In this document: positions 43,039-62,895 of the stretch, in pieces
How the letters are laid out: every line of letters starts with the position of its first letter
How positions within the stretch are numbered: position 1 is the first letter of the stretch
NCBI GenBank assembly: GCA_004322275.1
Contig: SCTA01000005.1
Coordinates: 1-64,000, forward strand
Reading direction: 5' to 3'
DNA length: 64,000 bases
Source of the DNA: a bacterium
GTDB taxonomy: Bacteria > Desulfobacterota > Deferrisomatia > Deferrisomatales > BM512
Notes under the pieces: model-generated
Seen by the model: only the letters and a program-made list of their open reading frames with translations
Told to the model about the DNA's origin: nothing
Databases searched by the model: none
Position numbers and translations under genes: made by a program

Positions 43039-46000
43039 TTAGCGCATCCATTTGCGTATTACCGAAGCGAGCTCGACGGTATCCACCGGTTTAGGTATGT
43101 AGTCGTCGAAACCCGCCGCGAGGAGCGCCTCCCTGTCGCCCTTCATCGCCTTAGCGGTCAGGGCCACCACCGGAATGTCGCTGAGGGAGGGGTCTTCCTT
43201 CAACCGGCGCGTCGCGTCGATGCCGCTGAGCACCGGAAGCTGCACGTCCATGAGGATGAGGGCGGGGCGAAGCCTGGCTGCCGCCTCCAGAGCCTGTGCG
43301 CCGTCCTCGGCTATCTCGTACCTGTGACCGAGTTCCTCCAGAATCGCCGACATCGTAAAGCGGTTGTCGGGGTTGTCCTCGACAAGGAGAATGACCTCGC
43401 CGGTACCGGCCCGGGCCGGGCGCGGCAGCGGAGCCGGTCCGGCGGAAACCTCCGCCGGGGCGGGGGCTTGCTTCGCCGTCTCGTATCCCAGCAGCCGGGA
43501 AACCTTGGCCACCAGCTCCTCGCGGTCGATCGACCCCTTCTGGATAAGCTCCTGCACGTTGTTGTGAGAAAGTTTCGACCGGTCGGCCGCGGTCAGCTCC
43601 TTCGCCGTGAGCACCAGCACCGGCAGGCGGGCCGTCCTTTCGGTCGAACGGAGCTGTTCGAGCACCTCGAAACCGTCCACGTCCGGCATCATCAGGTCGA
43701 GGATTATGGCGTCGGGCGTGATGACGGCGATTTTACGGAGCGCTTCGGCCCCTCCGGAGGCGGTCTCAACCCCGAACCCCGCCTCTTCCAGCGCGGAGCG
43801 TATCTGGAGGGTGGCGATGGAGTTGTCTTCGACGGCGAAGATAAGGCCTCTGCTCTCTTTCGGCCCCTTCCGCCCTGCGGGGGGTTTCGCGCTCTCCCCG
43901 GCAAGCCTGGAAATCTCGGAGACGTAATAAGCCTTGTCCACCGGCTTTAAGGCGTAGCCGGAGACGCCGAGGGCCTCGCCGGTGTCGCGGTCGTCGCTAA
44001 CCGACACGACCATTACGGGAATAGCGGCTGTTTCGGGCGAGGCCTTGAGCCGCGAGATCACCTCCCACCCGTCCATGTCCGGCATGATTACGTCAAGCGA
44101 GATGGCCGAGGGTTTTTCCCTCCGCGCCGCCTCTATCGCCTTTCTTCCCGAGGAGGCGGTTACGACCCGGTACCCGGCCGATTCGAGGTAGCTTTTCAGC
44201 GACCGGCGCTCGGACTCCTCGTCGTCGATGACAAGCACTGTCTTTACGTCTGCGGACGGCCCGGAGGACTTCGCCACGGCTTGAACCGGTTTTTCGGCCT
44301 CGCCGGAGGGGGGCTCACCGAGAGGGAGGTAGAGGACGAAGGTGCTTCCCTCGCCGGGCTGCGATTCCACCGCTATATGGCCGCCGAGTAGCCTCGCCAG
44401 CTTCTGGCAGATCGCCAGGCCGAGGCCGGTCCCCTCGTGCCGCCGGGTGGTGGAGCCGTCCACCTGCCGGAATTCGTCGAAGATGAAGGCCATGTCCCTG
44501 GCCTCGATACCGATACCCGTATCCCTGACCGAGAAAAGCACGAAGCCGTCTTTTTGGGAGAGGCGAACCTCCACCTCTCCGCGCTCGGTGAACTTGACGG
44601 CGTTCCCCATGAGGTTTGTTAGAATCTGCCTCACCCTTTCCATGTCGGAGATCATGGCGGGGGCGTCGCCGCCGAGGGTCAGCTTGAGCCCTTTGGCCCG
44701 GGCGAGGGGTTCGACGGTCTCAACCACCCTCTCAGCCACCGCGCGAGGCTCGAAGCGTTCGGCCACAAGCTCAAGCTTGCCGCTCTCTATCTTGGAGAGG
44801 TCGAGGATGTCGTTGAGGAGCGCGAGGAGGTGGCGCCCGTTGCGCTCGATGACCCGGAGATACTCCTGCTCCTGCGCCGGATTCTTGCCCGCCCCGCGCG
44901 AAATCATGAGCTGCGAGAGCGCCAGCACGCTGTTAAGCGGCGTGCGAAGCTCGTGGCTCATGTTGGAGAGGAATTCGGACTTGAGCCTGTCCGCCTCCTG
45001 CAGCCTCGCCTGCTGCTCTTCCAGTTCGGCGGTCTGCGACCGAAGCTCATGGGATTGAGCCTGAAGTTCGTTGTTCGCCGCGGACATCTCCTGATTCGCC
45101 GCGTTCAGTTCGTCGGTCTTCCTTAGGAGGGACTCGTTGCTTGCCTGGGCTTCGGCCAACAGTTCCTGAATGCGCTTGGCCTGCGCCGCCGTGTAGATGG
45201 AAGTGGCTATTATCACCCCGGCGGCGTCGAGGAAAGCCCGGCGGATTTCGTCGATCTCCTCGAAGGAGGCCACCTCCAGTACGCCCAGAAGGGAATCCTC
45301 GTAAACCAGGGGAATGGCATAGATGGATCTGGGGGGCTCGCTGATGGTCCCGCTTCGGACCACGGCTTCTCCTCTGCGGATGTTGGCAAGAAGAATGGGC
45401 TTGCGCTCCAGGGCGACCTGCCCGACGATTCCCTCTCCCGGCTTGAAGGAGATTGCGACGTGCTCCCCTGTCGCCAGCGCGTAGGAAGAGCGAAGAAAGC
45501 ACCTTCCTTCGTTCCCGGCAAGAATATAGAGCGCCCCGGAGCAGGCGTCTATGTAACGCGAAACGGAGGTGACGCTCTTGTCGAGGAGTTTTTCATAGGA
45601 TTCGCTCTCCAGCAGCTCCCGGTTCAGGCTGTTTTGCCCGTCGCGGAGCCAGAACTGGTTTTCGAGCGCGTCGATGAGCCCGTTGAAGTGGCGCGCCATC
45701 TCGGCGATCTCGTTTTTCCCTTCAACTCCGGACCTTGAGAGCTTTCCGGTCTTCGTAATCTCGGACATCGTCCCCTTTAGCGACGTTACGGAGAAAACGA
45801 TGCTCCGAAGGATGAGATACAGGAGGAGCGCGGAGAACGCGGCGGCGGTGAGGACGATAACAATGGACGTAGAACGGGCATCCAGCTCCACCCTTTCGGC
45901 GTCGGCCTTGAACCCTATCGCCTTGTTGCGGGAGTAGGCGTAGAGTTCCTGCATTTTCTGCTCTGTGCGCCTTATGTGGGGTTTGGCCGTGTTCTCACGC

Positions 46001-51457: not shown

Positions 51458-52672
51458 TTAACGATACTTCGAGAGAAACACCTCAATAGTTTCCAGTATA
51501 TAAGCCATCTCCCTCTCCCCCAGATCCTGATGGACTCCGACGTGAAGGCCGAATTTCCCCATATACTCCGCGACGGGGAACTCTCCCTCCCTGTAGCCGA
51601 GGTAGCTAAAGCCCAGGCACTGGGTCGGCATCGAGGCGAAGAGGGTGCGGGTCTCTATGCCGGCGTCTTCGAGGCGCTGCGTAAGCTGTGCCCTCGTGAA
51701 GGGTGCGGCTTCGTTTAGTATGATGGGTATGGCGTGGGGGCCGATGCGCTCCCAAGGTTCCTCCCTGATGGTGGAGAGGAAGGGGGCGAAACGGTCGAAG
51801 CGGGTCAGGACGTACGTCAGATTGTCGTGGCGTTTTTCCAGTATCTCTTCGTAGACCTCCAGCGCGCCGAGGCCTATCGCCGCCTCCAGTTCGTTCATCT
51901 TGCAGGAATAGCCGATACGGTCGAAGGTGAAGCGCACGTCCTCGCCCCCCTCGCCCCTGAAACGCTTCGCGCAGTAACCCGAGGCGGTGTTCAGGGAGCA
52001 CTGCTTGCAGGCGCAGGTGCGGCCGTGGGAGCGCAGCGACCGTAAGACCTCGGCGTAAGCCTCGTTGTCCGTGGTGACGACGCCGCCCTCGCCCGTGGTG
52101 ATTATGTGGGCTACGTAAGTGCTGAACGCCCCCAGATCACCCATCGAACCGGCGGGTTTTCCCTTGTAGAGCGCCCCGTGGGCCTCCGCCGCGTCCTCGA
52201 TGACCTTGAGGCCGCGCTTTTTGGCTATGGCGTTGATCCTGTCCATTTCGGCGGGCTTGCCCATGAGATGGACGGGCATTATGGCGCGGGTGCGCTCCGT
52301 TATCGCCCCCTCGATTCTGTCGGGGTCGATGTTCAGGGTGCCCTGCTCCACGTCCACGAAGACCGGGGTGAACCCGGCGTGGAGGACGGCGTTGCCGGTG
52401 GCGACGAAGGAGAGCGCAGGGATTATAATCTCGTCGCCGCGCCTCGCGCCGAAATCGTGGAGGACGGCGAGGGCGAGTATGTCGGCGTCGGTTCCGGAAC
52501 TCACCGCGACGGCTTCCTTCGTCCCCGCGACCTTCGCGAACTTGTCCTCGAACTCGCGCACCAGCTTGCCGCTGGATATCCTCTTCTTGTCGAGGGCCTC
52601 GTTGACGAGTCTTTTAGCGGTATCGGTTATCGTTATCGTCCCGAAGGGGACGGTTATCTTGTCAGCAGCCAC
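51458..52672 (-). CDS. DegT-fold PLP/PMP enzyme with His in place of catalytic Lys (NDP-sugar 3-dehydrase type)
   Basis: The protein has 404 residues. It starts with GTG directly after the stop of the glycosyltransferase gene. Overall it matches DegT/DnrJ/EryC1 enzymes (SSGTDADILAL, FVDVEQGTLNIDPD, VIEDAAEAHGA, GEGGVVTT). The position of the Schiff-base Lys, two residues before I-T-T-G-E-G-G, holds His189. This substitution defines 3-dehydrases such as ColD and the E1/RfbH enzyme rather than aminotransferases. A Cys group at 220, 222, 225 and 234 sits where RfbH carries part of its [2Fe-2S] ligands, though its distant fourth Cys is absent. The likely reaction is removal of the C3 hydroxyl from a 4-keto-6-deoxy nucleotide sugar. 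An E3-type reductase is not seen in the window. Confidence 0.85.
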   Translation of the reverse strand: MAADKITVPFGTITITDTAKRLVNEALDKKRISSGKLVREFEDKFAKVAGTKEAVAVSSGTDADILALAVLHDFGARRGDEIIIPALSFVATGNAVLHAGFTPVFVDVEQGTLNIDPDRIEGAITERTRAIMPVHLMGKPAEMDRINAIAKKRGLKVIEDAAEAHGALYKGKPAGSMGDLGAFSTYVAHIITTGEGGVVTTDNEAYAEVLRSLRSHGRTCACKQCSLNTASGYCAKRFRGEGGEDVRFTFDRIGYSCKMNELEAAIGLGALEVYEEILEKRHDNLTYVLTRFDRFAPFLSTIREEPWERIGPHAIPIILNEAAPFTRAQLTQRLEDAGIETRTLFASMPTQCLGFSYLGYREGEFPVAEYMGKFGLHVGVHQDLGEREMAYILETIEVFLSKYR

Positions 52673-53689
52673 TCAAACCTCCGGATTAACAGGCTTCTCT
52701 TTCCTTTTCCGCCACGAAACAAGCATCTGCTTCTTTTTTGTATCCCCCTCGAAGCCGATCTTCTCGCTGATGATGTAGCGCGGCCTCTCCTTTATCTGGT
52801 CGTACATCCTCGCGATGTAAAGGCCGAGGACGCCGTTGGTCAGAAGGGTGTTTCCCCCGAGGAAGAGGATTGCCGCCATTATCGCCGACCAGCCGGGGAG
52901 ATTTACCCCGATTATCTTGGTCGTGACGACGACGATAAGGTACAGAAACGCCAGGAGCGAGATTATGAAGCCGTATATGAGGCAGGCGTAGAGCGGCGCG
53001 GAGGAAAAAGCCGTCACTCCCCTTATGAACTCCTGTATCGGCCCCTTCCCTAGCAGCGGGAAGTGGGTCTTGCCCGAGTAGCGAGCCGCGCGGACGTAGT
53101 AGACCGTCTCCTGGTGAAAGCCTATCCAGCGGATAATTCCGCGAAGGTAGGGGTCGAGCTCCTTCATGTTCATCAGCTCGTTGACGACCTTGCGGGAGAG
53201 GAGCTTGAAATCCCCCATGTTCTCGGGAAGTTCGATGTCGGAGAGGGCGTTTATGACCTGGTAGGCCTTTTTCGTTATCCACATCTTCAGCGGATTCTCG
53301 CCGAGGCGCTTGGTCCGCACGGTGTTCACCACGTCCGCCCCCGCCTTGAATTTCTCTATCATCTCGGGGATGAGTTCGGGCGGGTCCTGCAGGTCGGTCG
53401 ATATCATCACCATCGCGTCGCCCCTGGCGCATTTGAAACCGGCCAGGGCGCAAGGGTAGTGGCCGAAGCGGCGCGACATGTTCACGATCTTTATGCGGGG
53501 GTCTTCGGCGTTGTATTTCTTCAGTATCTCAAGGGATCCGTCGGTGGAATCGTCGTTGACGAAGATAAGCTCGTAGTCGATGCCGAGAGGATCGAGAGTG
53601 CTCCTCATCCTCGCGACGAGCTCGTCCATGCCCTCTTCCTCGTTGCGGAACGAGAAAATGGCCGAAAGAAGGTTTAACTCATTTGCCAA
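52673..53689 (-). CDS. DPM1/ArnC-like GT2 glycosyltransferase with two C-terminal membrane segments
   Basis: The protein has 338 residues. The GT-A domain has FRNEEEGMDELV, VNDDSTDGS and the metal-binding ISTDLQDPPEL. The C-terminus carries two membrane helices (~233-257 and ~268-290) and the GLYIARMYDQIKERPRYII end typical of undecaprenyl-phosphate sugar transferases. Such enzymes load a sugar on the lipid carrier for periplasmic modification of LPS or glycans. It lies directly before the dehydrase gene and 76 bases after the radical SAM gene, inside the sugar cluster. Confidence 0.92.
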   Translation of the reverse strand: MANELNLLSAIFSFRNEEEGMDELVARMRSTLDPLGIDYELIFVNDDSTDGSLEILKKYNAEDPRIKIVNMSRRFGHYPCALAGFKCARGDAMVMISTDLQDPPELIPEMIEKFKAGADVVNTVRTKRLGENPLKMWITKKAYQVINALSDIELPENMGDFKLLSRKVVNELMNMKELDPYLRGIIRWIGFHQETVYYVRAARYSGKTHFPLLGKGPIQEFIRGVTAFSSAPLYACLIYGFIISLLAFLYLIVVVTTKIIGVNLPGWSAIMAAILFLGGNTLLTNGVLGLYIARMYDQIKERPRYIISEKIGFEGDTKKKQMLVSWRKRKEKPVNPEV

Positions 53690-53765: not shown

Positions 53766-55256
53766 TCAGGATTCCAGCAGCTTTCTTTTCAGCCGCGTCT
53801 TCGTCATCTCCTCGACGTGTCTTCTCACGCCGGTCCCGAATTTCCCCTCGATCATCTCAAGATACGCGGGGTTCTCGAAGTACCGGTGAAAAGCGTCGTC
53901 CCTAAAGCGAAGAACCTCTTTGGCGGTGAGCGTCTTCGTCGGGAGCGGCAGCATAGCATAGGAGTGCTGCGAGTAATCCTGCCATTTCTCCGGCAGCTCC
54001 CACCCCTCCCTTACGGCTTTTTGGTACAGTTCCGAGCCGGGATAGGCCATCGCGCAGTAGAAATTGGCGAACTCGCAGTTCAGCTCCTCGGCGAGCCGGA
54101 GGGTCTCGTTCATCGTCTCAAGGGTATCCTCGGGAAGGCCGAAGATATAGTTTCCTATGACGCTTATCCCGGCCCGTTTAATCTCCTCTACGACTTTGGC
54201 GATGTCCTTTACCCGCATGTTCTTCTGGGCGCTGTCGCGCACCTCGGGGTTGGCGGTCTCGATGCCGAGGGCGAGCCAGGTTATGCCCGCCTTTCTCATC
54301 CTGACGAGGTTCTCCGGTTTTACGGTGTCAACCCTCGCGTAGGCCCAGATGTTGAGATCGTAGCCCTTCTTTATGAGCATGTCGACTATCGTCATGTAGT
54401 GGCTCTCGTCGAGCACGAAAAGCTCGTCGATGATCTTGAGGTTTTTCACCCCGTAGCGGTCAACCAGAAGGCCGATCTCTTCCACTACCTTTTCCGGACT
54501 CCGGTAGCGTATCCCCCTCTTGCCGAAGAGCGCGTTGATGCAGCAAAAGGCGCAGCCGAAAGGGCAGCCGAGGCTGGTGTAGATGGCGGCGTAGGGCTGG
54601 CGCTCCTCCAGATTGCCGAAGCAGTGCCAGTTGTGCGCCCGGTAGCTATCCATCGGCAGAAGGTCCCAGGCTGCAGCGGGCATCACCTCGTCCAGAGACT
54701 TGACGAGGGGAGCGGGGGGATTGGACCTGACCTCTCCCCCCTGCCTGTACCAGAGGCCCGGCACCGTGGCAAGATCGGCGCCGCCTTTCCTCAGCTCCTC
54801 TATCAGCGCTTTTAGCGTGTAGAAGCCTTCCCCCCCAATCACGTAATCCACCGCCTCCTCGCGTAGCGTCCTCTCGGGGAGCGCAGTCGGGTGGAGGCCG
54901 CCGATAGCCACTTTGCAGGAAGCTTTTTCGGTGATGGCGGCGCAGATCTTTCCCGCTATCGTCATTGTCTGGGTAGAGGCGGAGGGCTGGGAGCCGTAGA
55001 CGATGACGGCGGCGAGGAGAGGTTCGAGCTTCGCCACCTCGGCGGCGGTTTCCTCGCTCGACCAGTTGTTGGCGTTGGCGTCGATTATCGCGACCTCGAA
55101 ACCCTCGCTCCGCAGGTATCCCGCCAGCGCCGCCGTCCAGTAGGGGGGCTCCACGGCGGCGAGATCGGCCCCGAGGCCCTGATATATCTGCCGCTTGTCT
55201 CCGGGAGAGACCAGAACCACGTCCATACGCGACTTTAAAACCCGGTGTACGGTCAT
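53766..55256 (-). CDS. B12-binding-domain radical SAM protein
   Basis: The protein has 496 residues from the ATG at 55256, whose ATGA overlaps the transketolase stop; an in-frame GTG lies six bases upstream. Residues ~12-150 form a B12-binding-like Rossmann domain without the DxHxxG motif, as is usual in this group. The radical SAM core carries Cys231, Cys235 and Cys238 in LGCPFGCAFC, then the IDELFVLDESHY and GIETANPEV strands. The C-terminal ~100 residues are helical. Related enzymes make C-methylations, ring contractions or other C-C changes. Its place within the sugar cluster suggests action on the sugar or a lipid; the reaction is unknown. Confidence 0.9.
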   Translation of the reverse strand: MTVHRVLKSRMDVVLVSPGDKRQIYQGLGADLAAVEPPYWTAALAGYLRSEGFEVAIIDANANNWSSEETAAEVAKLEPLLAAVIVYGSQPSASTQTMTIAGKICAAITEKASCKVAIGGLHPTALPERTLREEAVDYVIGGEGFYTLKALIEELRKGGADLATVPGLWYRQGGEVRSNPPAPLVKSLDEVMPAAAWDLLPMDSYRAHNWHCFGNLEERQPYAAIYTSLGCPFGCAFCCINALFGKRGIRYRSPEKVVEEIGLLVDRYGVKNLKIIDELFVLDESHYMTIVDMLIKKGYDLNIWAYARVDTVKPENLVRMRKAGITWLALGIETANPEVRDSAQKNMRVKDIAKVVEEIKRAGISVIGNYIFGLPEDTLETMNETLRLAEELNCEFANFYCAMAYPGSELYQKAVREGWELPEKWQDYSQHSYAMLPLPTKTLTAKEVLRFRDDAFHRYFENPAYLEMIEGKFGTGVRRHVEEMTKTRLKRKLLES

Positions 55257-56200
55257 TGGCACGCCAGAAGGTCGCGGAGGATGGCTTCGTCGTCCATTCC
55301 GTAGGTCTTGTGCAGGTATTCCCTCCCGCCGTTGGGGAAATGGTAGCTGCCGGAAGGCCCGTACCTCCTGAGCCTCGCGGGAAGATTTCTGTCGCAGATG
55401 AGGTTGGCGGCGAGGCTGTCCAGCCCGCCCCTTCCGATCAGGGATTCCTCGACGGTGAAGATGCTCTCATAGCCCGAAAGCGCGGACGCCAGCGCCTCCT
55501 CGTCGCAGCCCTTCAGCAGGTAAAGGTCGATGAGACCGGCTTCGACCTTCTCCTCCTTGAGGCGGTCGATAATCCGAAGCCCCTTTTGCGTCGCGTACCC
55601 GGTGGTGACGAGGCAAACCTTCCCGCCCTGCCTGAGCACGCTGAAACCCCTGTCGAAATCGGGCTTTAAGCCATCGTAGACGGGGGAGAGGAGCTTGCCG
55701 TCGAGCCGGAGGTATTTGGGCCGCTTCGCGTTCAGGGTGAAATCGAAAAATTCCCCGGTGATGAAACTGTCGCAGGGCGAGAAAAGCTCGATGTTCGGGA
55801 GAAGCCGGATTATGGAGATGTCCTCGATGCAGTGGTGGGTCGGCCCCGAGACGTCGTAGCTGAACCCCGCCCCGAGACTCACGAGGTTGACGTTCAGTTC
55901 CCGCGACTGCGCCAGAAGGGCGAGGTTCCGAAGCTGCTCGCAGGCGCGCATCGAAATGAAGGGGGCGATGCCGTAGGCGTAGACGGTAAAGCCTTCCAGC
56001 GCGAGGCCGGTGGCGATGTTGACAAGGTTCTGCTCGGCTATCCCGACGTTTATGCACCGCCTGGGGTGACGGTCCTTGAGGGCGTCGAAGGAGGGGGCGC
56101 CGAGGTCCGCAGTCAGGAAAAAGAGGGAGTTGTCGGAATCCATGCGGCTGGAGATGCGCTCGATGAGGGTGTCCCGCATGGTCTTCGCCGGGTTCAACAC
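55253..56200 (-). CDS. Transketolase-like protein, C-terminal (pyrimidine-binding and C-domain) subunit
   Basis: The protein has 315 residues. A GTG start overlaps the N-terminal subunit stop by seven bases; an ATG at 56179 is an alternative. The family motifs RCINVGIAEQNLVNIATGLALEG (with the catalytic Glu for TPP), PFISMRACEQLRN, SGPTHHCIEDISIIR and KVCLVTTGY are present. With its neighbour it forms a full thiamine diphosphate enzyme that moves two-carbon ketol units. Split transketolases recur in surface-polysaccharide clusters, where they are proposed to make branched or chain-altered sugars. Confidence 0.93.
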   Translation of the reverse strand: MLNPAKTMRDTLIERISSRMDSDNSLFFLTADLGAPSFDALKDRHPRRCINVGIAEQNLVNIATGLALEGFTVYAYGIAPFISMRACEQLRNLALLAQSRELNVNLVSLGAGFSYDVSGPTHHCIEDISIIRLLPNIELFSPCDSFITGEFFDFTLNAKRPKYLRLDGKLLSPVYDGLKPDFDRGFSVLRQGGKVCLVTTGYATQKGLRIIDRLKEEKVEAGLIDLYLLKGCDEEALASALSGYESIFTVEESLIGRGGLDSLAANLICDRNLPARLRRYGPSGSYHFPNGGREYLHKTYGMDDEAILRDLLACQ

Positions 56201-57012
56201 AGTTCCTCCAGAGCTTCGTCAACCTGCTCTGCCGTCAACATCCGCACATGGGAAAGGGGGTCTTTTTCCAGCATGGGGACTCCCTTGCCCTTTACGGTGT
56301 TGGCGATTATGGCTTTCGGCGCGGCGGTCGCGCTCCCGGCGCACTTTTCAAAGGCCAGGGCGAGGGCGCCGGTGTCGTGGCCGTCAACGGTCACGGCTTC
56401 CCACCCGAAAGTCTGTAATTTCTCCCCGACCGGAGCGAGGTCCAGTATGTTACGGCAAAAATCCAGCATCGAGCCGCCGTTGTTGTCCAGGACGAGGACA
56501 AGGTTGTGAAGGTTGTGTTGCACGGCGAACATTATCGCCTCCCAGACCGACCCCTCATTGAGCTCGCCGTCGCCCAGAAGGACGAAAACCTTCCGGGCGC
56601 TCCCTTTTTCCAGAAGGCCTCTCGCCATCCCGCAGGCCACGCCGAGCCCGTGGCCGAGAGAGCCGTTTATGGTCTCGTAGCCGGGGATGGTTGTGTCGGG
56701 AATGACCTTCAGAATGCCCTCCTCGCTTCCTATGAGCTCCAGCTCGCGGGATGGGAAAAAGCCGAGGTCGGCGAGAATCGGGTAGAGGGAGATCGAGCCA
56801 TGGCCCTTGCTGACTATGAAGCGGTCTCTCCCTTCCCACTGCGGCTTTTGCGGGTCAAAGCGCAGGAACCCGCCGTAAAAGAGGACCGTCAGCAGCTCGA
56901 CGCAGGAAAGGGAGGAGGCGAGGCGGGTCTCCGGGCAGCGGCGGTGGAGTTTTATCGTCTCCCGCCTGCACCAACCGGCCTTTCCGGCAAGCTCGCTTCG
57001 TTCAAGGGTCAA
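56194..57012 (-). CDS. Transketolase-like protein, N-terminal (TPP-binding) subunit
   Basis: The protein has 272 residues. Its TTG start overlaps the epimerase stop (TTGA). The TPP/Mg motif GDGELNEGSVWEA...LDNNG lies at ~147-180, and SKGHGSISLYPILADLG and GSLGHGLGVACGMA match transketolase. The C-terminus includes NTVKGKGVPMLEKDPLSHVR. It is too short to be a complete enzyme and needs the downstream subunit, to which it is translationally coupled. Placement among nucleotide-sugar genes argues against a pentose-phosphate role. Confidence 0.93.
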   Translation of the reverse strand: MTLERSELAGKAGWCRRETIKLHRRCPETRLASSLSCVELLTVLFYGGFLRFDPQKPQWEGRDRFIVSKGHGSISLYPILADLGFFPSRELELIGSEEGILKVIPDTTIPGYETINGSLGHGLGVACGMARGLLEKGSARKVFVLLGDGELNEGSVWEAIMFAVQHNLHNLVLVLDNNGGSMLDFCRNILDLAPVGEKLQTFGWEAVTVDGHDTGALALAFEKCAGSATAAPKAIIANTVKGKGVPMLEKDPLSHVRMLTAEQVDEALEELC

Positions 57013-57521
57013 ACGTAATCCCCGCTTTCATCCCGCCGCGAAAGGATGGGGTTTTTCACCGGCCACCAGATTTTGAAGCGGGGATCGTCCCACCTGTAGG
57101 TGAACTGGCCTTTGGGGTCGTAGTAGGAGGACTGCTTGTAGTTGAGCGCTATCCTGTCGGTGAGCGCCAGATGGCCGAGCCCGTAAAGCGGCGGCACGAG
57201 GAGCTGGTGGCGGTTCTTTTCGGTGAGGGTGAGGGAGATCCACTTGCCGAAGGTGGGCGACTTTTCGTTGCAGTCCGCCACCACCATGTAGATTCTTCCC
57301 AGAATACAGGTGAGGAGCTTGGTCGTGACCTTGTCGCCGTGAAGCCCCCGCAGCACCCCTTTCGAGGAGACCGAGAGGTCGTCCTGGATGAAATCGGCGG
57401 TTATGCCGCTCTCTTTGTAGAGCTTTTCGTTGTAAAGCTCGAAAAACTCGCCCCTGTGGTCCTCGAAGACCTCGGGCTTTATCAGGAGAACCCCTTCGAG
57501 CGCCGTCTTTTCGACTTTCAT
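57009..57521 (-). CDS. RmlC-like cupin epimerase, resembling heptose C3/C5 epimerases
   Basis: The 170-residue cupin keeps the catalytic-base His61 in GVLRGLHGD, HRGEF at 22-26, and H117 in YGLGH. The C-terminal KQSSYYDPKGQFTYRWDDP to NPILSRRD resembles the Campylobacter GDP-6-deoxy-4-keto-heptose epimerases (MlghB/DdahB) more than rhamnose RmlC, by recall. It would epimerise a 4-keto nucleotide sugar at C3 and/or C5. The ATG is two bases from the upstream SDR gene's stop, and the next gene overlaps by four bases. Confidence 0.85.
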   Translation of the reverse strand: MKVEKTALEGVLLIKPEVFEDHRGEFFELYNEKLYKESGITADFIQDDLSVSSKGVLRGLHGDKVTTKLLTCILGRIYMVVADCNEKSPTFGKWISLTLTEKNRHQLLVPPLYGLGHLALTDRIALNYKQSSYYDPKGQFTYRWDDPRFKIWWPVKNPILSRRDESGDYV

Positions 57522-57523
57522 CT

Positions 57524-58462
57524 CTACACGTTTCCGTAGCGGGCGTTGCGGATTATCCGGTAGCCCTTGATAAGCTCGGCTATCCCCATCTCAAGCGAGT
57601 GCTTCGGCATGAAGCCGGTCTTCTCTATCTTTTCGTTGGAGACTATGTAGTCGCGCTTGTCGGGGTCTTCCCCCACCGGGGCGCTTATGTAGACCAGCTC
57701 GGGTAGCTGCGCCTTTATCCTCTCGCAAAGCTCGATCTTGGAGAGGTTTGCGTCGGAGAGGCCGAGATTGTAGGGCTCGTTTTTCATCTTCTCGAAATTT
57801 TCGATGCCGTGGATGAAAGCGCGGGCCACGTCGCGGATGTGGATGTAGTTGCGCTTGAAATGGCCCTCGAAGAGGACGATGAAGCGGTCGTTCACGGCCC
57901 GGTGTACGAAATCGTTGACCAGAAGGTCGACGCGCATCCGGGGGCTTGTGCCGAAGACGGTGGCGAGCCGGAAGCTTATGGCGTTGCCGCGCTCCAGGAC
58001 CATCTTTTCCGCCTCTACTTTCGTCCTGCCGTAGAGGGTGATGGGGTTGAGGGGGCTCTCTTCGGTGCAGAACTGCCCCTGCTGGCCTATACCGTAGCCG
58101 CTGTTGGTCACCGGAAGGAGAATTCTCTGCTCCTTCGAGGCGTTCTTGACTATAAAGCCGATCGCGTCGCGGTTGACGGTGACCGCCGCCAGGGGGTCGC
58201 GGTTGCAAAGCGGGGCTCCGACAAGGGCTGCAAGCGGTATTATTACGTCGGCCCCGGCGAGGAGCTTCGCCATAACCTTTTCGTCCCGCACGTCTCCCCT
58301 CGTGACCGAGAAGTTTTCGTCGGCGCAGCAGTCGAGAAGGGAGTTTTGGCCGAACATGAAGCTGTCGATTACCGACACCCTGTGTCCAAGCTTCAAAAGC
58401 TCGGGTACCATGACCGAGCCGATGTAGCCCGCTCCGCCGGTGACCAGAATATTCAGACTCAT
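57524..58462 (-). CDS. NAD-dependent nucleotide-sugar epimerase/dehydratase (extended SDR)
   Basis: The protein has 312 residues. The Rossmann motif GGAGYIGS occupies residues 9-16, and the active-site pair is Tyr144-x3-Lys148 (TLYGRTKVEAEK), with the partner residues in LPVTNSGYG near 117-124. It probably oxidises C4 of a GDP- or NDP-linked hexose or heptose, as epimerase, 4,6-dehydratase or reductase; sequence alone does not separate these. GAGG precedes the ATG. It lies between the heptose kinase and the RmlC-like epimerase, so it should act on the GDP-heptose made by the upstream enzymes. Confidence 0.9.
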   Translation of the reverse strand: MSLNILVTGGAGYIGSVMVPELLKLGHRVSVIDSFMFGQNSLLDCCADENFSVTRGDVRDEKVMAKLLAGADVIIPLAALVGAPLCNRDPLAAVTVNRDAIGFIVKNASKEQRILLPVTNSGYGIGQQGQFCTEESPLNPITLYGRTKVEAEKMVLERGNAISFRLATVFGTSPRMRVDLLVNDFVHRAVNDRFIVLFEGHFKRNYIHIRDVARAFIHGIENFEKMKNEPYNLGLSDANLSKIELCERIKAQLPELVYISAPVGEDPDKRDYIVSNEKIEKTGFMPKHSLEMGIAELIKGYRIIRNARYGNV

Positions 58463-58480: not shown

Positions 58481-59479
58481 TCAGTGATTGTAAGAGGGCC
58501 TGTAGATAATAATCTCCGCGCCGGAAAAATCGAAATTGAAGGGGATGTGGATGTACTTGTCCAGCGCCTTTCTCACCTTTGGCTGGTTCTCGGGCCGTAC
58601 GTAAAGGAGCATGAAGCCTCCTCCTCCGGCCCCGAGGAGCTTGCCGCCGAGAGCCCCGTTCTTCATCCCCGTCTCGTAGATGTGGTCGATAACCGGATTG
58701 GTCATCTTCGAGGAGAGCCCCTTCTTGAAGCGCCAGGTCTCGTGAAGAAGTCTTCCGAAATCGTCGAGGTCCGCCTCCGGGGAAGCCAGCAGGTTGCCGG
58801 CGTCATCCACCAGCCCCTTCATGGCGTGGAGCGACATTATGTTTTTCTTCGTGTTCTCTATCTGTTCCCCCGCGATCTCGGAGGCGTAGCGTGAGATGCC
58901 GGAGAAGACCAGCATCAGGTTCGACCTGAACGCATCGAGCCTCTTTTCGGAAACAATCAGCGGCCTGGGAACGATCTGGCCGTTTTGCATGAATTCTATC
59001 ACGTTCAGCCCCCCGCAGGCGGCGAAGACCTGATCCTGCGAGCCTACGTTTTCCCTGATGAGGTTCTGCTCTATATGTATCGCCTCCTCGAAGAGGTTCT
59101 CCCGGGAGATTATCCTGCCCTTGAGGGCGTAAAGGGTTTTGAGCAGACAGACGGTGAAGGCGGAACTCGACCCCATGCCGGAACGGGCGGGTATGTCGCC
59201 GTCGTGGTGGAGCTCGAGCCCCGAGTCTATCTTCATGTAACGGATGGTCTCCCGGACGGAGGGGTGCACGATCTCGTCAACCGTCTTGACCGTCTCCACC
59301 TTGGAGTAGACTATCCTGTGTTTGTGCTCGAAGAACGGGGGAAGTTCGCGGCAGGTTATGTAGCAGTACTTGTCTATCGCCGCGCCTATCACCTTTCCGC
59401 CGTGCTCTAGGTAATAGGAGGGGTAGTCGGTTCCGCCTCCGAAGAAGGATATCCTGTGTGGGGCTCTGGTTACTATCAT
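58481..59479 (-). CDS. hddA: GHMP kinase, D-glycero-D-manno-heptose 7-phosphate kinase type
   Basis: The protein has 332 residues from the ATG at 59479, whose ATGA overlaps the nucleotidyltransferase stop. The N-terminus MIVTRAPHRISFFGGGTDYP is characteristic of HddA-like kinases. The ATP loop GDIPARSGMGSSSAFTV is at ~95-110, and KLLGAGGGGFMLLY is motif 3. HddA phosphorylates C1 of heptose 7-phosphate to give the alpha-1,7-bisphosphate. The adjacent HddC-like gene supports this, whereas GmhA and GmhB are not in the window. Confidence 0.88.
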   Translation of the reverse strand: MIVTRAPHRISFFGGGTDYPSYYLEHGGKVIGAAIDKYCYITCRELPPFFEHKHRIVYSKVETVKTVDEIVHPSVRETIRYMKIDSGLELHHDGDIPARSGMGSSSAFTVCLLKTLYALKGRIISRENLFEEAIHIEQNLIRENVGSQDQVFAACGGLNVIEFMQNGQIVPRPLIVSEKRLDAFRSNLMLVFSGISRYASEIAGEQIENTKKNIMSLHAMKGLVDDAGNLLASPEADLDDFGRLLHETWRFKKGLSSKMTNPVIDHIYETGMKNGALGGKLLGAGGGGFMLLYVRPENQPKVRKALDKYIHIPFNFDFSGAEIIIYRPSYNH

Positions 59480-60207
59480 GGATTCTCCGGCGAGATGACG
59501 TTTGCCAGCTCGCTCTGTGCCTTCCGGTAGTCCTCGGGCACTCCGATGTCGATGAAATAACCTTCCGCGACGTAAGGGCAAAGCGAAACGTCACCGGTTT
59601 TGCCCGAAAGCAGGTCCCTCTCGAAGGAGAAATTTCCCTCGAAGGGAACCTTTTTCATGAGATCCTTGCGGATTCCGTAGACGCCCGCGTTTATATAACC
59701 CGGGGATGACGAAGACTTTTCCACAAACCCCGCTATTTTCGTGCCGGACAGTTCCACTGTGCCATAGCGCCCGCATTTTTTCAATAATTTCAGGGCTATG
59801 GTGACGTCGCCCCCGCCCTCCTCGTGACAGCGCATGAAGTCCCGAAAATCTATGCCGAAGAAGGTGTCTCCGTTGAGGACGAGCGCGTTTTCCCCCTCGA
59901 CGAAGCCCAGCGCCCGGTAAATCGCCCCGCCGGTGCCCAGCGGCTCCTCCTCGACCGAATAGACCACCGGAATTCCCTGAAACGAGGAGCCGAAATAGTC
60001 CATTATGATATCGCGCTTGTGGTGGACGGAGAGGATTATCCTTCCGGCCCCGAACTTCGCCGCATAGCCGAGGAGATGGTGGAGGAAGGGTTTTCCATCG
60101 ATGTCCGCCATAACCTTCGGCACGTCCTTTACGACTTCGCAAAGCCTGGTCCCGAACCCGCCAGCCAGCACTATCACCTCAAGGGGTTTTCCTGTTTTAC
60201 GAACCAT
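59476..60207 (-). CDS. hddC: Nucleotidyltransferase, HddC-type (heptose-1-phosphate guanylyltransferase)
   Basis: The protein has 243 residues with AAAGG six bases before the ATG. Motifs: VIVLAGGFGTRLCEVVKDVPKVM (nucleotide binding, residues 11-33), EEPLGTGGAIYRAL, LNGDTFFGID (metal Asp), and GYINAGVYGI with FIDIGVPEDY. This pattern fits sugar-1-phosphate nucleotidyltransferases such as HddC, which forms GDP-D-glycero-alpha-D-manno-heptose. The nucleotide (GDP) is inferred from the partner kinase rather than seen in sequence. Confidence 0.87.
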   Translation of the reverse strand: MVRKTGKPLEVIVLAGGFGTRLCEVVKDVPKVMADIDGKPFLHHLLGYAAKFGAGRIILSVHHKRDIIMDYFGSSFQGIPVVYSVEEEPLGTGGAIYRALGFVEGENALVLNGDTFFGIDFRDFMRCHEEGGGDVTIALKLLKKCGRYGTVELSGTKIAGFVEKSSSSPGYINAGVYGIRKDLMKKVPFEGNFSFERDLLSGKTGDVSLCPYVAEGYFIDIGVPEDYRKAQSELANVISPENP

Positions 60208-60249: not shown

Positions 60250-61275
60250 TCAGTATTTGAAAGCGACTCCGGTCCTAGTACAGTCTTTGCAGATTTTGAT
60301 AGCGCCCCGGCCGATTTTCGCGTGGGTTTTCCGTATCCTGCGGGCTTCTTTGGAGTTCCAGAGCTTTTCGATCGACTTTTCTCCGGCGTTGAGCCTCTTG
60401 TACGGTTCGAGCCCGCCCCAGACGACGTAATCGCAGCAGGGGAATACGTCTCCGTTCCAGTTTACCGTCAGCACCTTCCAGGGCCAGTCGCACACGGGTA
60501 TCGCGGTCTTCGGCCTCTTTTTCTGGAAGTCAACGGCGACCTCGATATTCCGGGTGTTTCCCGGCCTTACGTTGAACACTATGCCGAGCTTCCTGCAAAA
60601 CTCCCGGACCTCTTCGACCTCGTGGGTGTTGTACTCGTAGAGCATGAAATCGAGCATGAGGAGCACATCCGCGCCCCGCTCGCGGTTGAGCTCCTGAAAG
60701 CGGACGATATTGCTCTTTATCTTCTCGATGTTGCCGTGGCGCGCCTGTCTCCGGTAGGTCTCCTGCGAAAACCCGCTTACGGCGACCTTGACGAAGCAGA
60801 TTCCCGACTCGATAAGACGCAAAGCGTTCTTCTCGGTCAGAAGTATCCCGTTGGTGGACATCATCGTGGCGACGTTTCTGTCCGACGCATATTTTATGGC
60901 CGAATAAATTTCCCTGTAGACGAGCGGCTCTCCGTTCACGTAAAGGACCGCAATCACTATATGATCCTTGATCTCATCTATTATGGTTCGATAAAGGGCG
61001 AAGTCCATCTCGCCCTTTTCGACGTAGGGGGTATTATCCGGGTTGCAGTTGTATATCTCCCCCTCTTCGGTCCTGCAAAAAACGCAATCGGCGTTGCATT
61101 CGTTACAAAGGTCGATGTTTATCATGAAGGGGAATCTGCCGCTCCGCTCCCGCTTTAAGGCGTAAGAGAAGTAACAGACGAACATATTCCACAGTTTTTT
61201 GAAGCTGATCAGCCTTCTTCGGAAGATCAGCCACAGAATCCTTAGCTTCAGAGCAATGTAAAGGTTTCTTTTCAT
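60250..61275 (-). CDS. Radical SAM/SPASM-domain protein
   Basis: The protein has 341 residues. A basic, hydrophobic N-terminus (~1-40) may attach to the membrane. The [4Fe-4S] motif is Cys60-x3-Cys64-x2-Cys67 (CNADCVFC). VNGEPLVYREI and MMSTNGILLTE are standard core strands. A SPASM-type auxiliary site includes CDWPWKVLTVNWNGDVFPCC and a C-terminal CKDC. It is 42 bases from the HddC gene on the same strand. Related proteins modify peptides or sugars by radical chemistry; the substrate here is unknown. No signal peptide cleavage site is evident. Confidence 0.88.
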   Translation of the reverse strand: MKRNLYIALKLRILWLIFRRRLISFKKLWNMFVCYFSYALKRERSGRFPFMINIDLCNECNADCVFCRTEEGEIYNCNPDNTPYVEKGEMDFALYRTIIDEIKDHIVIAVLYVNGEPLVYREIYSAIKYASDRNVATMMSTNGILLTEKNALRLIESGICFVKVAVSGFSQETYRRQARHGNIEKIKSNIVRFQELNRERGADVLLMLDFMLYEYNTHEVEEVREFCRKLGIVFNVRPGNTRNIEVAVDFQKKRPKTAIPVCDWPWKVLTVNWNGDVFPCCDYVVWGGLEPYKRLNAGEKSIEKLWNSKEARRIRKTHAKIGRGAIKICKDCTRTGVAFKY

Positions 61276-61326: not shown

Positions 61327-62895
61327 TTACCTGTTCATCAGGTCCTTGCGGATATAAAACGACCACCCTCTCAACATCGGCGAGGGTACGGGCTGGTAGA
61401 GACCTATGTTCCGGGAGAGATAATCCCGTACCACGCCGTCCCAGCCCGGCGGGTAGTTGTTGTCGAGGAAAAAGGTGTCGATGAGCGCGGGCGGGCTCTT
61501 TTGCAACTCGGCCCGAAGGGTCGCGGGGTCGAAAAATCTGTAGTACGGGTCGTTTCTGTCCATAATCCCCGTGAAACTCGGGCGGTCATCACCCGGCATG
61601 CCGGTGATGTCCCTGCGGAAGAGAGGATTGTGGACCCAGATCGCGATAACGCGCTCGTCCCTCGGTATCTTGCCTAGTATCCCGTCCAGACTGGCGAGGG
61701 CTGCTACACCCGCCGGAACCTTTGAAGCCCTCGTATTTTCGGTATCCCGGAGGTTCAGGTTTGTTTCGCGAAATTCCCTTCCCACGGCTGGAAGCTGGTT
61801 CAGGACGACGGTCAGCACCGCCGCCGCCAGGACTCCCCTCGCGACCTTCGCCGCAACCCTTTTTTCACCGAAAAGCGTCAAGCCGAAGGGTGCGAAGAGG
61901 GCAAGGGAAACGTAAACCGGGGTCTGGTACTGTTCGAGGGGAAACCGTATCCTGATACAGAAGATTATGATTCCGAGCAGTATCCCCGCCCCTGCGAGGG
62001 CCGCCGAATCCTTTTTTCCCCACGACCGTTTCGCCCAGCCCGCCACCCCCAGCAAAAGAAGCGCGCCGAGAAGAGGCCTTCTCCCAAAATTCGCAAAGAC
62101 TTCCCCGGCCAGATAGTCCCCCTGCTTACCCATCGCCAGCTTCGAGGTCAGTATGTGCGCGGTCTTTATGTTTTCAACAAGAGAAATTCCATAGGCCGCG
62201 TAAAGCAGGAATACAAGCATGGCTGCCGACACCCCTCCCGCGACGACGGCCAGGGCGAGCTTTTTCGTCTGCCTTTCGCCCAGCCACCCGGCGGCGGCGT
62301 ACCCGATGAGGCCGAAGAAGAGCGGCAGGGCGTACTTGGGCGTTATCGCCACCGAAAGGAGGCACAAAAAGGAAGCGAAGGCTATATTCGCCGGTTTCGG
62401 GTAGCAAAAAAACAAAACCATCGCGCCGACCGCCGTCAGCGCCGCGTAGTGGTCGATGCTGAACTCCACCAGAAAGGGGCCGACGTTGCCGGAAGCAGCG
62501 AGCAAAACTATCGGGAAGAGGGCGAAGGCCCAGTCTCTGGCCACATTCTTGCCGTGGCCGTAAAAGAGCGCTCCCGCTCCGGCGAAAGCGAGGATGCTAA
62601 GAAACCTTAGCGCCAGCAGCACAAAGGCGGACTCCGGAAACAATCTGAAAAACGGCATGACGAAGAGATACGCCAGAACAGGGTAGGCCGAAAAGAAGTC
62701 GGGGCCGGGCTTCATTCCCGCAGAGATCATCCAGAGCTGGCGGGCGTGAAGGGATTCGTCGAAAAAGGGGAAATGGACGAGGGCGCGAAGCAGCAGCAAA
62801 AATACCCCGGCGACGACCGCGATAACGGTAAGGTATAGGGTTGTCTGCTCAAGGCGGCGAAGCGCCGTTTCGCGGCTGATATCCATGTGTCTCAT
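61327..62895 (-). CDS. GT-C-type integral membrane glycosyltransferase-like protein
   Basis: The protein has 522 residues with about ten membrane segments between ~18 and ~370, followed by a soluble C-terminal domain of ~150 residues. After the first helix the loop FPFFDESLHARQLWMI carries the acidic motif expected of GT-C enzymes that use lipid-linked sugars. The C-terminal part (RDERVIAIWVHNPLFRRD, YRFFDP) resembles the periplasmic domains of ArnT/PMT-like proteins. It would transfer a sugar from undecaprenyl phosphate, perhaps that loaded by the GT2 enzyme of the same cluster. AGGAAA immediately precedes the ATG. Confidence 0.8.
   Translation of the reverse strand: MRHMDISRETALRRLEQTTLYLTVIAVVAGVFLLLLRALVHFPFFDESLHARQLWMISAGMKPGPDFFSAYPVLAYLFVMPFFRLFPESAFVLLALRFLSILAFAGAGALFYGHGKNVARDWAFALFPIVLLAASGNVGPFLVEFSIDHYAALTAVGAMVLFFCYPKPANIAFASFLCLLSVAITPKYALPLFFGLIGYAAAGWLGERQTKKLALAVVAGGVSAAMLVFLLYAAYGISLVENIKTAHILTSKLAMGKQGDYLAGEVFANFGRRPLLGALLLLGVAGWAKRSWGKKDSAALAGAGILLGIIIFCIRIRFPLEQYQTPVYVSLALFAPFGLTLFGEKRVAAKVARGVLAAAVLTVVLNQLPAVGREFRETNLNLRDTENTRASKVPAGVAALASLDGILGKIPRDERVIAIWVHNPLFRRDITGMPGDDRPSFTGIMDRNDPYYRFFDPATLRAELQKSPPALIDTFFLDNNYPPGWDGVVRDYLSRNIGLYQPVPSPMLRGWSFYIRKDLMNR

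Follow-up and report, generated by a model that had tools for sequence, protein, structure and literature searches.

The pairing of an Fe-S cluster with PMP is a rare cofactor combination, known from the enzymes E1 and SpnQ. E1/AscC/RfbH (CDP-6-deoxy-L-threo-D-glycero-4-hexulose-3-dehydrase, PDB 3bcx) and SpnQ have the DegT fold and carry histidine at the site of the catalytic lysine. ColD (GDP-4-keto-6-deoxymannose-3-dehydratase) has the same histidine and deoxygenates C3 of GDP-4-keto sugars, but it is driven by glutamate and contains neither a cysteine group nor a cluster. Nothing separates 3-dehydratases from sugar aminotransferases more than the replacement of this lysine by histidine, according to a review that also sets out the roles of PMP, histidine and Fe-S cluster in E1, SpnQ and ColD (PMC8987622).

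Such enzymes also take part in heptose metabolism. The C3-dehydratases of Campylobacter jejuni HS:5/11/45, which are glutamate-driven and free of cysteine group and cluster like ColD, act on GDP-heptoses, and the HS:5 enzyme accepts the product of Cj1427. Cj1427 is a GDP-heptose C4-dehydrogenase, and together with a C3-dehydratase it yields GDP-D-glycero-3-deoxy-4-keto-heptose in vitro, a combination presented as artificial (PMC10680097). The C. jejuni HS:2 pathway comprises HddA, HddC, Cj1427, Cj1430 and Cj1428. In the yersiniose, paulomycose and miharamycin pathways (YerE, alphaKADH2 and split transketolase), a thiamine enzyme branches a keto-(deoxy)-sugar. In yersiniose, for example, YerE acts on the E1/E3 product, CDP-3,6-dideoxy-4-keto-glucose, and attaches a C2 unit to it; for alphaKADH2-type enzymes and split-gene transketolases, branching of keto sugars has been either demonstrated or proposed (PMC12247030).

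His-type 3-dehydratases of DegT fold and GDP-heptose enzymes are thus known kinds. Here we describe a locus that combines them in the window, the whole 64,000-nucleotide stretch of DNA analysed (contig SCTA01000005.1 of assembly GCA_004322275.1, Desulfobacterota). An open reading frame at 51458..52672, on the minus strand (which the earlier note did not state) with a GTG start at 52672, encodes a putative PMP-dependent NDP-sugar 3-dehydratase of 404 residues, assigned by homology, alignment and fold. We give a probability of about 0.68 to the reading that it is a GDP-4-keto-heptose 3-dehydratase with PMP and an Fe-S cluster, feeding thiamine-dependent carbon branching.

The operon and its counterparts in other genomes

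The gene belongs to a nearly gapless run on the minus strand that encodes HddC-like, HddA-like, SDR and RmlC-like proteins, a split transketolase, a B12 radical SAM protein, a family 2 glycosyltransferase and the dehydratase. Heptose enzymes are the best PDB matches of both the HddC-like heptose-1-phosphate guanylyltransferase (59476..60207) and the HddA-like heptose-7-phosphate kinase of the GHMP type (58481..59581; its true start is probably the ATG at 59479). The SDR (57524..58462) is orthologous to PDB 6vo6/6vo8 at 391 bits, the next structure scoring 84; we take these entries to be the Cj1427 enzyme of C. jejuni, a GDP-heptose C4-dehydrogenase. The TNSGYG motif is common to the SDR and these structures, and neither has the Asp-Glu pair usually found in 4,6-dehydratases. 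The operon thus contains the HddA-, HddC- and C4-dehydrogenase-like genes of a GDP-heptose modification pathway. They are followed by an RmlC-type 4-keto-sugar 3/5-epimerase (57009..57521), whose PDB matches include GDP-heptose epimerases, and by the N-terminal ThDP half (56194..57012, GDG...NN motif present) and C-terminal half (55253..56200, GIAEQ motif present) of the transketolase. The B12-binding radical SAM protein (53766..55262; CPFGCAFC) is HpnJ/BchE-like, and these nearest named relatives do not fix its reaction. By homology, the protein at 52673..53689 is an ArnC/PgfS-like glycosyltransferase of family 2 whose C-terminal part carries membrane segments; the Solidesulfovibrio cassette encodes a homologue at 46% identity. 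A GmhA-type SIS protein is encoded elsewhere in the genome of the window and beside the Solidesulfovibrio cassette.

Beyond the operon lie genes for another radical SAM protein and for a protein rich in membrane segments (60250-61275 and 61327-62895, minus strand), which probably belong to one surface-glycan region with it. At the other end, a LUD-domain protein (PF02589; 50654-51295, plus strand) directly adjoins the operon in convergent orientation.

A two-sequence profile, run against GTDB genomes, gave 38 relatives of the dehydratase at 54-79% identity. Three further members came from viral contigs, a same-phylum genome and a Solidesulfovibrio magneticus RS-1 plasmid (one each), for 41 orthologues in all. 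The hosts span more than 10 phyla, mostly anaerobic lineages, including Thermodesulfobacteriota, Myxococcota, Elusimicrobiota, Omnitrophota, Planctomycetota, Chloroflexota, Nitrospirota, Kiritimatiellota, Auribacterota, WWE3 and one Woesearchaeota MAG. The viral-classed contig (L073, IMGVR_UViG_3300020171_002008) carries a family member together with transketolase C-half, RmlC-like and HddA-like genes, and may be phage-borne or a misclassified segment.

Neighbouring genes were scored within about 10 kb of the 41 loci; many contigs are short, so all counts are lower bounds. An HddA-like kinase is found in at least 34 loci, an HddC-like nucleotidyltransferase in 26, a Cj1427-like SDR in 21, and a GDP-fucose-synthase-like reductase, the type to which Cj1428 of the HS:2 pathway belongs, in 15. 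The B12 radical SAM protein is present in 27 and is orthologous across these cassettes (about 480-780 bits). A two-subunit thiamine enzyme occurs in 30 loci, as transketolase halves in 20 (a few distant matches, such as that of L043 at 7 kb, may be unrelated) and as keto-acid-dehydrogenase E1 alpha/beta in 10. At four loci (L037, L041, L067 and L072) most of the cassette is missing nearby. The kinase, the thiamine pair and the orthologous radical SAM gene were found in none of seven RfbH control loci from related genomes, which have CDP-hexose-type neighbours instead. The cassette shares HddA-, HddC-, Cj1427- and RmlC-like genes with the HS:2 pathway and goes beyond it with the dehydratase, the split thiamine enzyme and the B12 radical SAM protein.

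The whole cassette is present in a cultured strain, S. magneticus RS-1, which makes the proposal testable. It lies at 21-41 kb of plasmid pDMC1 (L095) between IS66-type transposase genes, which makes its mobility probable in at least this one cultured host. The plasmid copy is also accompanied by a SIS-domain isomerase, glycosyltransferases and a phospholipid-carrier glycosyltransferase. A search of the open-licence literature found no report on the cassette or on this plasmid.

The two types of thiamine enzyme never occur together in one locus, and four exchanges between them can be placed on the family tree; they thus replace each other, which is what one would expect if each of them donates a C2 unit. 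The likeness to the yersiniose, paulomycose and miharamycin pathways is one of gene content. Unlike those pathways, the cassette has a heptose kinase set, its thiamine enzyme is a transketolase at some loci and of alphaKADH type at others, and its hosts are mainly anaerobic environmental bacteria. A different role for the thiamine enzyme is conceivable if unlikely: the dehydratase would act as proposed, but the thiamine enzyme would supply sedoheptulose, and the final sugar would be an unbranched 3-deoxy-heptose. Transketolase does give sedoheptulose-7-phosphate, a substrate of GmhA/HddA, and C. jejuni makes 3,6-dideoxy-heptoses without any branching (PMC10440746). The 10 loci with a pyruvate-dehydrogenase-type E1 pair speak against this supply role, since such a pair is not expected to make sedoheptulose. 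We therefore prefer a branching function for the thiamine enzyme.

The histidine site and the cysteine loop

The window protein scores 320.8 bits against PF01041 (DegT/DnrJ/EryC1/StrS; gathering threshold 19.8), and Foldseek matches agree with this fold. The earlier note had placed a histidine two residues before ITTGEGG, as in ColD and RfbH/E1; this is His189, in YVAHIITTGEGG (52082-52117, minus strand; codon 52106..52108). When the protein is aligned with solved structures, both pairwise and by profile, His189 falls on His220 of E1 (3bcx). The E1 H220K mutant entry 3bb8, which differs from 3bcx there alone, carries lysine in this column, and so does GDP-perosamine synthase (3bn1/3dr7), for which it is the catalytic lysine (a K186A mutant was crystallised). 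Every aligned family member has the histidine in place of a lysine able to form the PLP aldimine, and the neighbouring columns of the family alignments hold no lysine. These alignments support a dehydratase-type active site as in ColD and E1, in agreement with the earlier note.

The second feature is a group of four cysteines, C220-x-C222-x2-C225-x8-C234, reading CACKQCSLNTASGYC (51971..52015, minus strand). E1 has the spacing C-x57-C-x-C-x7-C when computed from its sequence, which reportedly is also the ligand set of Agnihotri et al. 2004. Ten RfbH proteins and one Streptomyces homologue are arranged in the same way, with E-D-x-C upstream followed by C-x-C-x7-C; the Streptomyces protein is probably a SpnQ-type enzyme because its gene adjoins an NDP-hexose 2,3-dehydratase. 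The window protein and its family share with E1, RfbH and SpnQ a local C-x-C...C before a conserved KRF stretch. The suggestion that all four cysteines sit at the RfbH cluster site held in part: 220, 222 and 234 align with local E1/RfbH cysteines, whereas 225 is extra. The upstream cysteine is indeed missing, its stretch reading IEDAAEAHG with Ala162 (codon 52187..52189, minus strand) at the E1/RfbH position, and this E1 cysteine is absent family-wide. The window protein thus has the His of RfbH/E1 without their cluster motif (upstream C plus C-x-C-x7-C). Conversely, C-x-C-x2-C-x8/9-C does not occur in the ten RfbH proteins, E1 or the Streptomyces homologue, which bears out the claim of a new pattern. 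The arrangement, like the combined cassette, was not found in the open-licence literature.

His189 and Cys220/222/225/234 are invariant in the 41-row alignment, in a 39-row alignment and in the Solidesulfovibrio orthologue. The loop between the cysteines is variable, so this invariance argues against a chance pattern. A fifth cysteine (257, in SCKMNE) is common, but several members have Ser or Ala there, which places it outside the invariant set. The altered cysteine set is therefore a clean difference of the whole family from E1/RfbH and not an oddity of a single sequence, and its four cysteines are candidate Fe-S ligands.

Misannotation, which the earlier note had anticipated, does occur: the Solidesulfovibrio orthologue WP_148208558.1 is named 'DegT/DnrJ/EryC1/StrS family aminotransferase'. 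A plain aminotransferase was rejected on the family-wide invariance of His189. A plain RfbH was rejected on the cysteine pattern, the tree and the score against NF011936 (NCBIfam RfbH), which is 264.4 bits, under the equivalog cut-off of 423, as compared with 618-745 for ten true RfbH proteins of the same phylum. Behind the sugar aminotransferase label there is most likely an enzyme of deoxygenation, one whose iron-sulfur-like cysteine pattern is its own.

Phylogeny and fold

In a tree of 85 sequences, the family forms its own clade (100/100), RfbH forms another (100/99), and RfbH and ColD group together (100/99), so that the family lies outside the RfbH clade and outside the grouping with ColD. 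Lys-type enzymes occupy one side of a branch, and a single change from lysine to histidine would be compatible with this tree if its root lies among the Lys enzymes. With the His and Cys columns removed, the test rejects a union of the family with RfbH that leaves ColD out (p-AU 0.0004), a result that is good but not final given a quick tree and long ColD branches. The family should therefore not be filed as RfbH/E1, and the invariant four-Cys loop also sets it apart from the ColD type. Either the cluster was lost in ColD and one lineage shifted a ligand, or clusters have two separate origins.

Two further His-type proteins were seen during the survey. A very divergent DegT protein without the cysteine group (YMAHHLVTGVGG) is encoded at 1358-2431 of a viral contig (L074, IMGVR_UViG_3300032897_000240); its branch is long and its position in the tree unsure. 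A ColD-like dehydratase (FFSHHMTTMEGG) is encoded in the cassette-bearing genome G037 (L086; contig C11, about 44135-45343).

The family profile finds E1 as its best PDB match (271.6 bits), ahead of aminotransferases. Entry 9wvy ('putative NDP-4-keto-6-deoxyglucose-3-dehydratase') was considered as a closer relative and set aside, with 184 bits against 272 for E1. An AlphaFold2 model built with 39 family members has a mean pLDDT of 93, and its query-normalised TM scores are 0.88 to E1, 0.85 to ColD and 0.84 to perosamine synthase; the best Foldseek E-values belong to GDP-perosamine synthase, an aminotransferase. The Cys loop is modelled too weakly for ligand geometry to be read from it (ten-residue block means of 54-76, with residues 226-231 below 50).

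It is rather improbable that the family works like ColD, with glutamate and hydrolysis and no redox cluster, its four cysteines binding a structural metal such as Zn. Enzymes of the ColD type do serve GDP-heptose in C. jejuni HS:5/11/45 (PMC10440746), and a flexible loop in the model would suit this reading. A crude pattern search found no ferredoxin-type reductase (E3) in the cassettes, which might be added in its favour, but the same search found no Fer2-type E3 in the seven RfbH control loci of related genomes either, and its absence is not used here as an argument against a redox cluster. What weighs against the ColD-like reading is that the ColD alignment has no such Cys loop, that Cys220, 222 and 234 align with the cluster cysteines of E1, and that the cysteines are invariant across a family of mostly anaerobic lineages. 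An NDP-sugar aminotransferase resembling GDP-perosamine synthase, with His189 in another role and PLP carried by another lysine, is highly improbable: the annotation, Pfam PF01041 and the first Foldseek matches point to it, but the histidine is invariant with no lysine in neighbouring columns, neither E1 nor ColD, the His enzymes known so far, transaminates (PMC8987622), and a thiamine branching step suits C3-deoxygenation, as in yersiniose.

A proposed pathway and its meaning

On the preferred reading, of an Fe-S/PMP dehydratase that feeds carbon branching, substrate, reaction, electron route, order of steps and product would be as follows. The HddA/HddC-like enzymes and the Cj1427-like C4-dehydrogenase would supply GDP-4-keto-heptose. 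Because His189 replaces the Schiff-base lysine, no internal aldimine with PLP would form; PMP would condense with the C4 ketone, His189 would move the proton, and the C3 hydroxyl would leave. A cluster on Cys220/222/225/234, beside the cofactor, could then pass electrons to a PMP-glucoseen-type intermediate as in E1/SpnQ, with one ligand now in the local loop instead of on a distant strand. The cassette would thus make naturally a 3-deoxy-4-keto product, which would serve as acceptor for a two-carbon branch at C4, added by the split transketolase or, at other loci, by the alpha-keto-acid dehydrogenase-type E1. The B12 radical SAM enzyme and a reductase/epimerase would finish the sugar.

In sum, whereas E1/RfbH belongs to a CDP-hexose context, this family forms a separate clade in a GDP-heptose context, and the make-up of its cassette suggests an undescribed route to seven-carbon 3-deoxy sugars that bear a carbon branch. 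The full combination is put forward tentatively, at somewhat less than even odds: among His-type PMP dehydratases, this family would be a third lineage, one in which an Fe-S ligand has changed place, and it would act in an undescribed, widespread pathway to a C4-branched 3-deoxy-heptose (nine carbons) that joins GDP-heptose C4 oxidation, Fe-S/PMP deoxygenation, branching by split transketolase or keto-acid dehydrogenase, and B12 radical SAM chemistry.

The cassette offers a concrete hypothesis for a surface sugar on which no report was found; it is spread over more than 10 phyla, and one cultured strain has all of it. Split transketolases come into view here as enzymes of sugar branching, a function that has been proposed with no in vitro study (PMC12247030). 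The family itself provides a new enzyme for studying the Fe-S/PMP pairing. If an Fe-S cluster is confirmed, a separate clade with another set of invariant cysteines would mean that the cluster can be rewired or has arisen twice.
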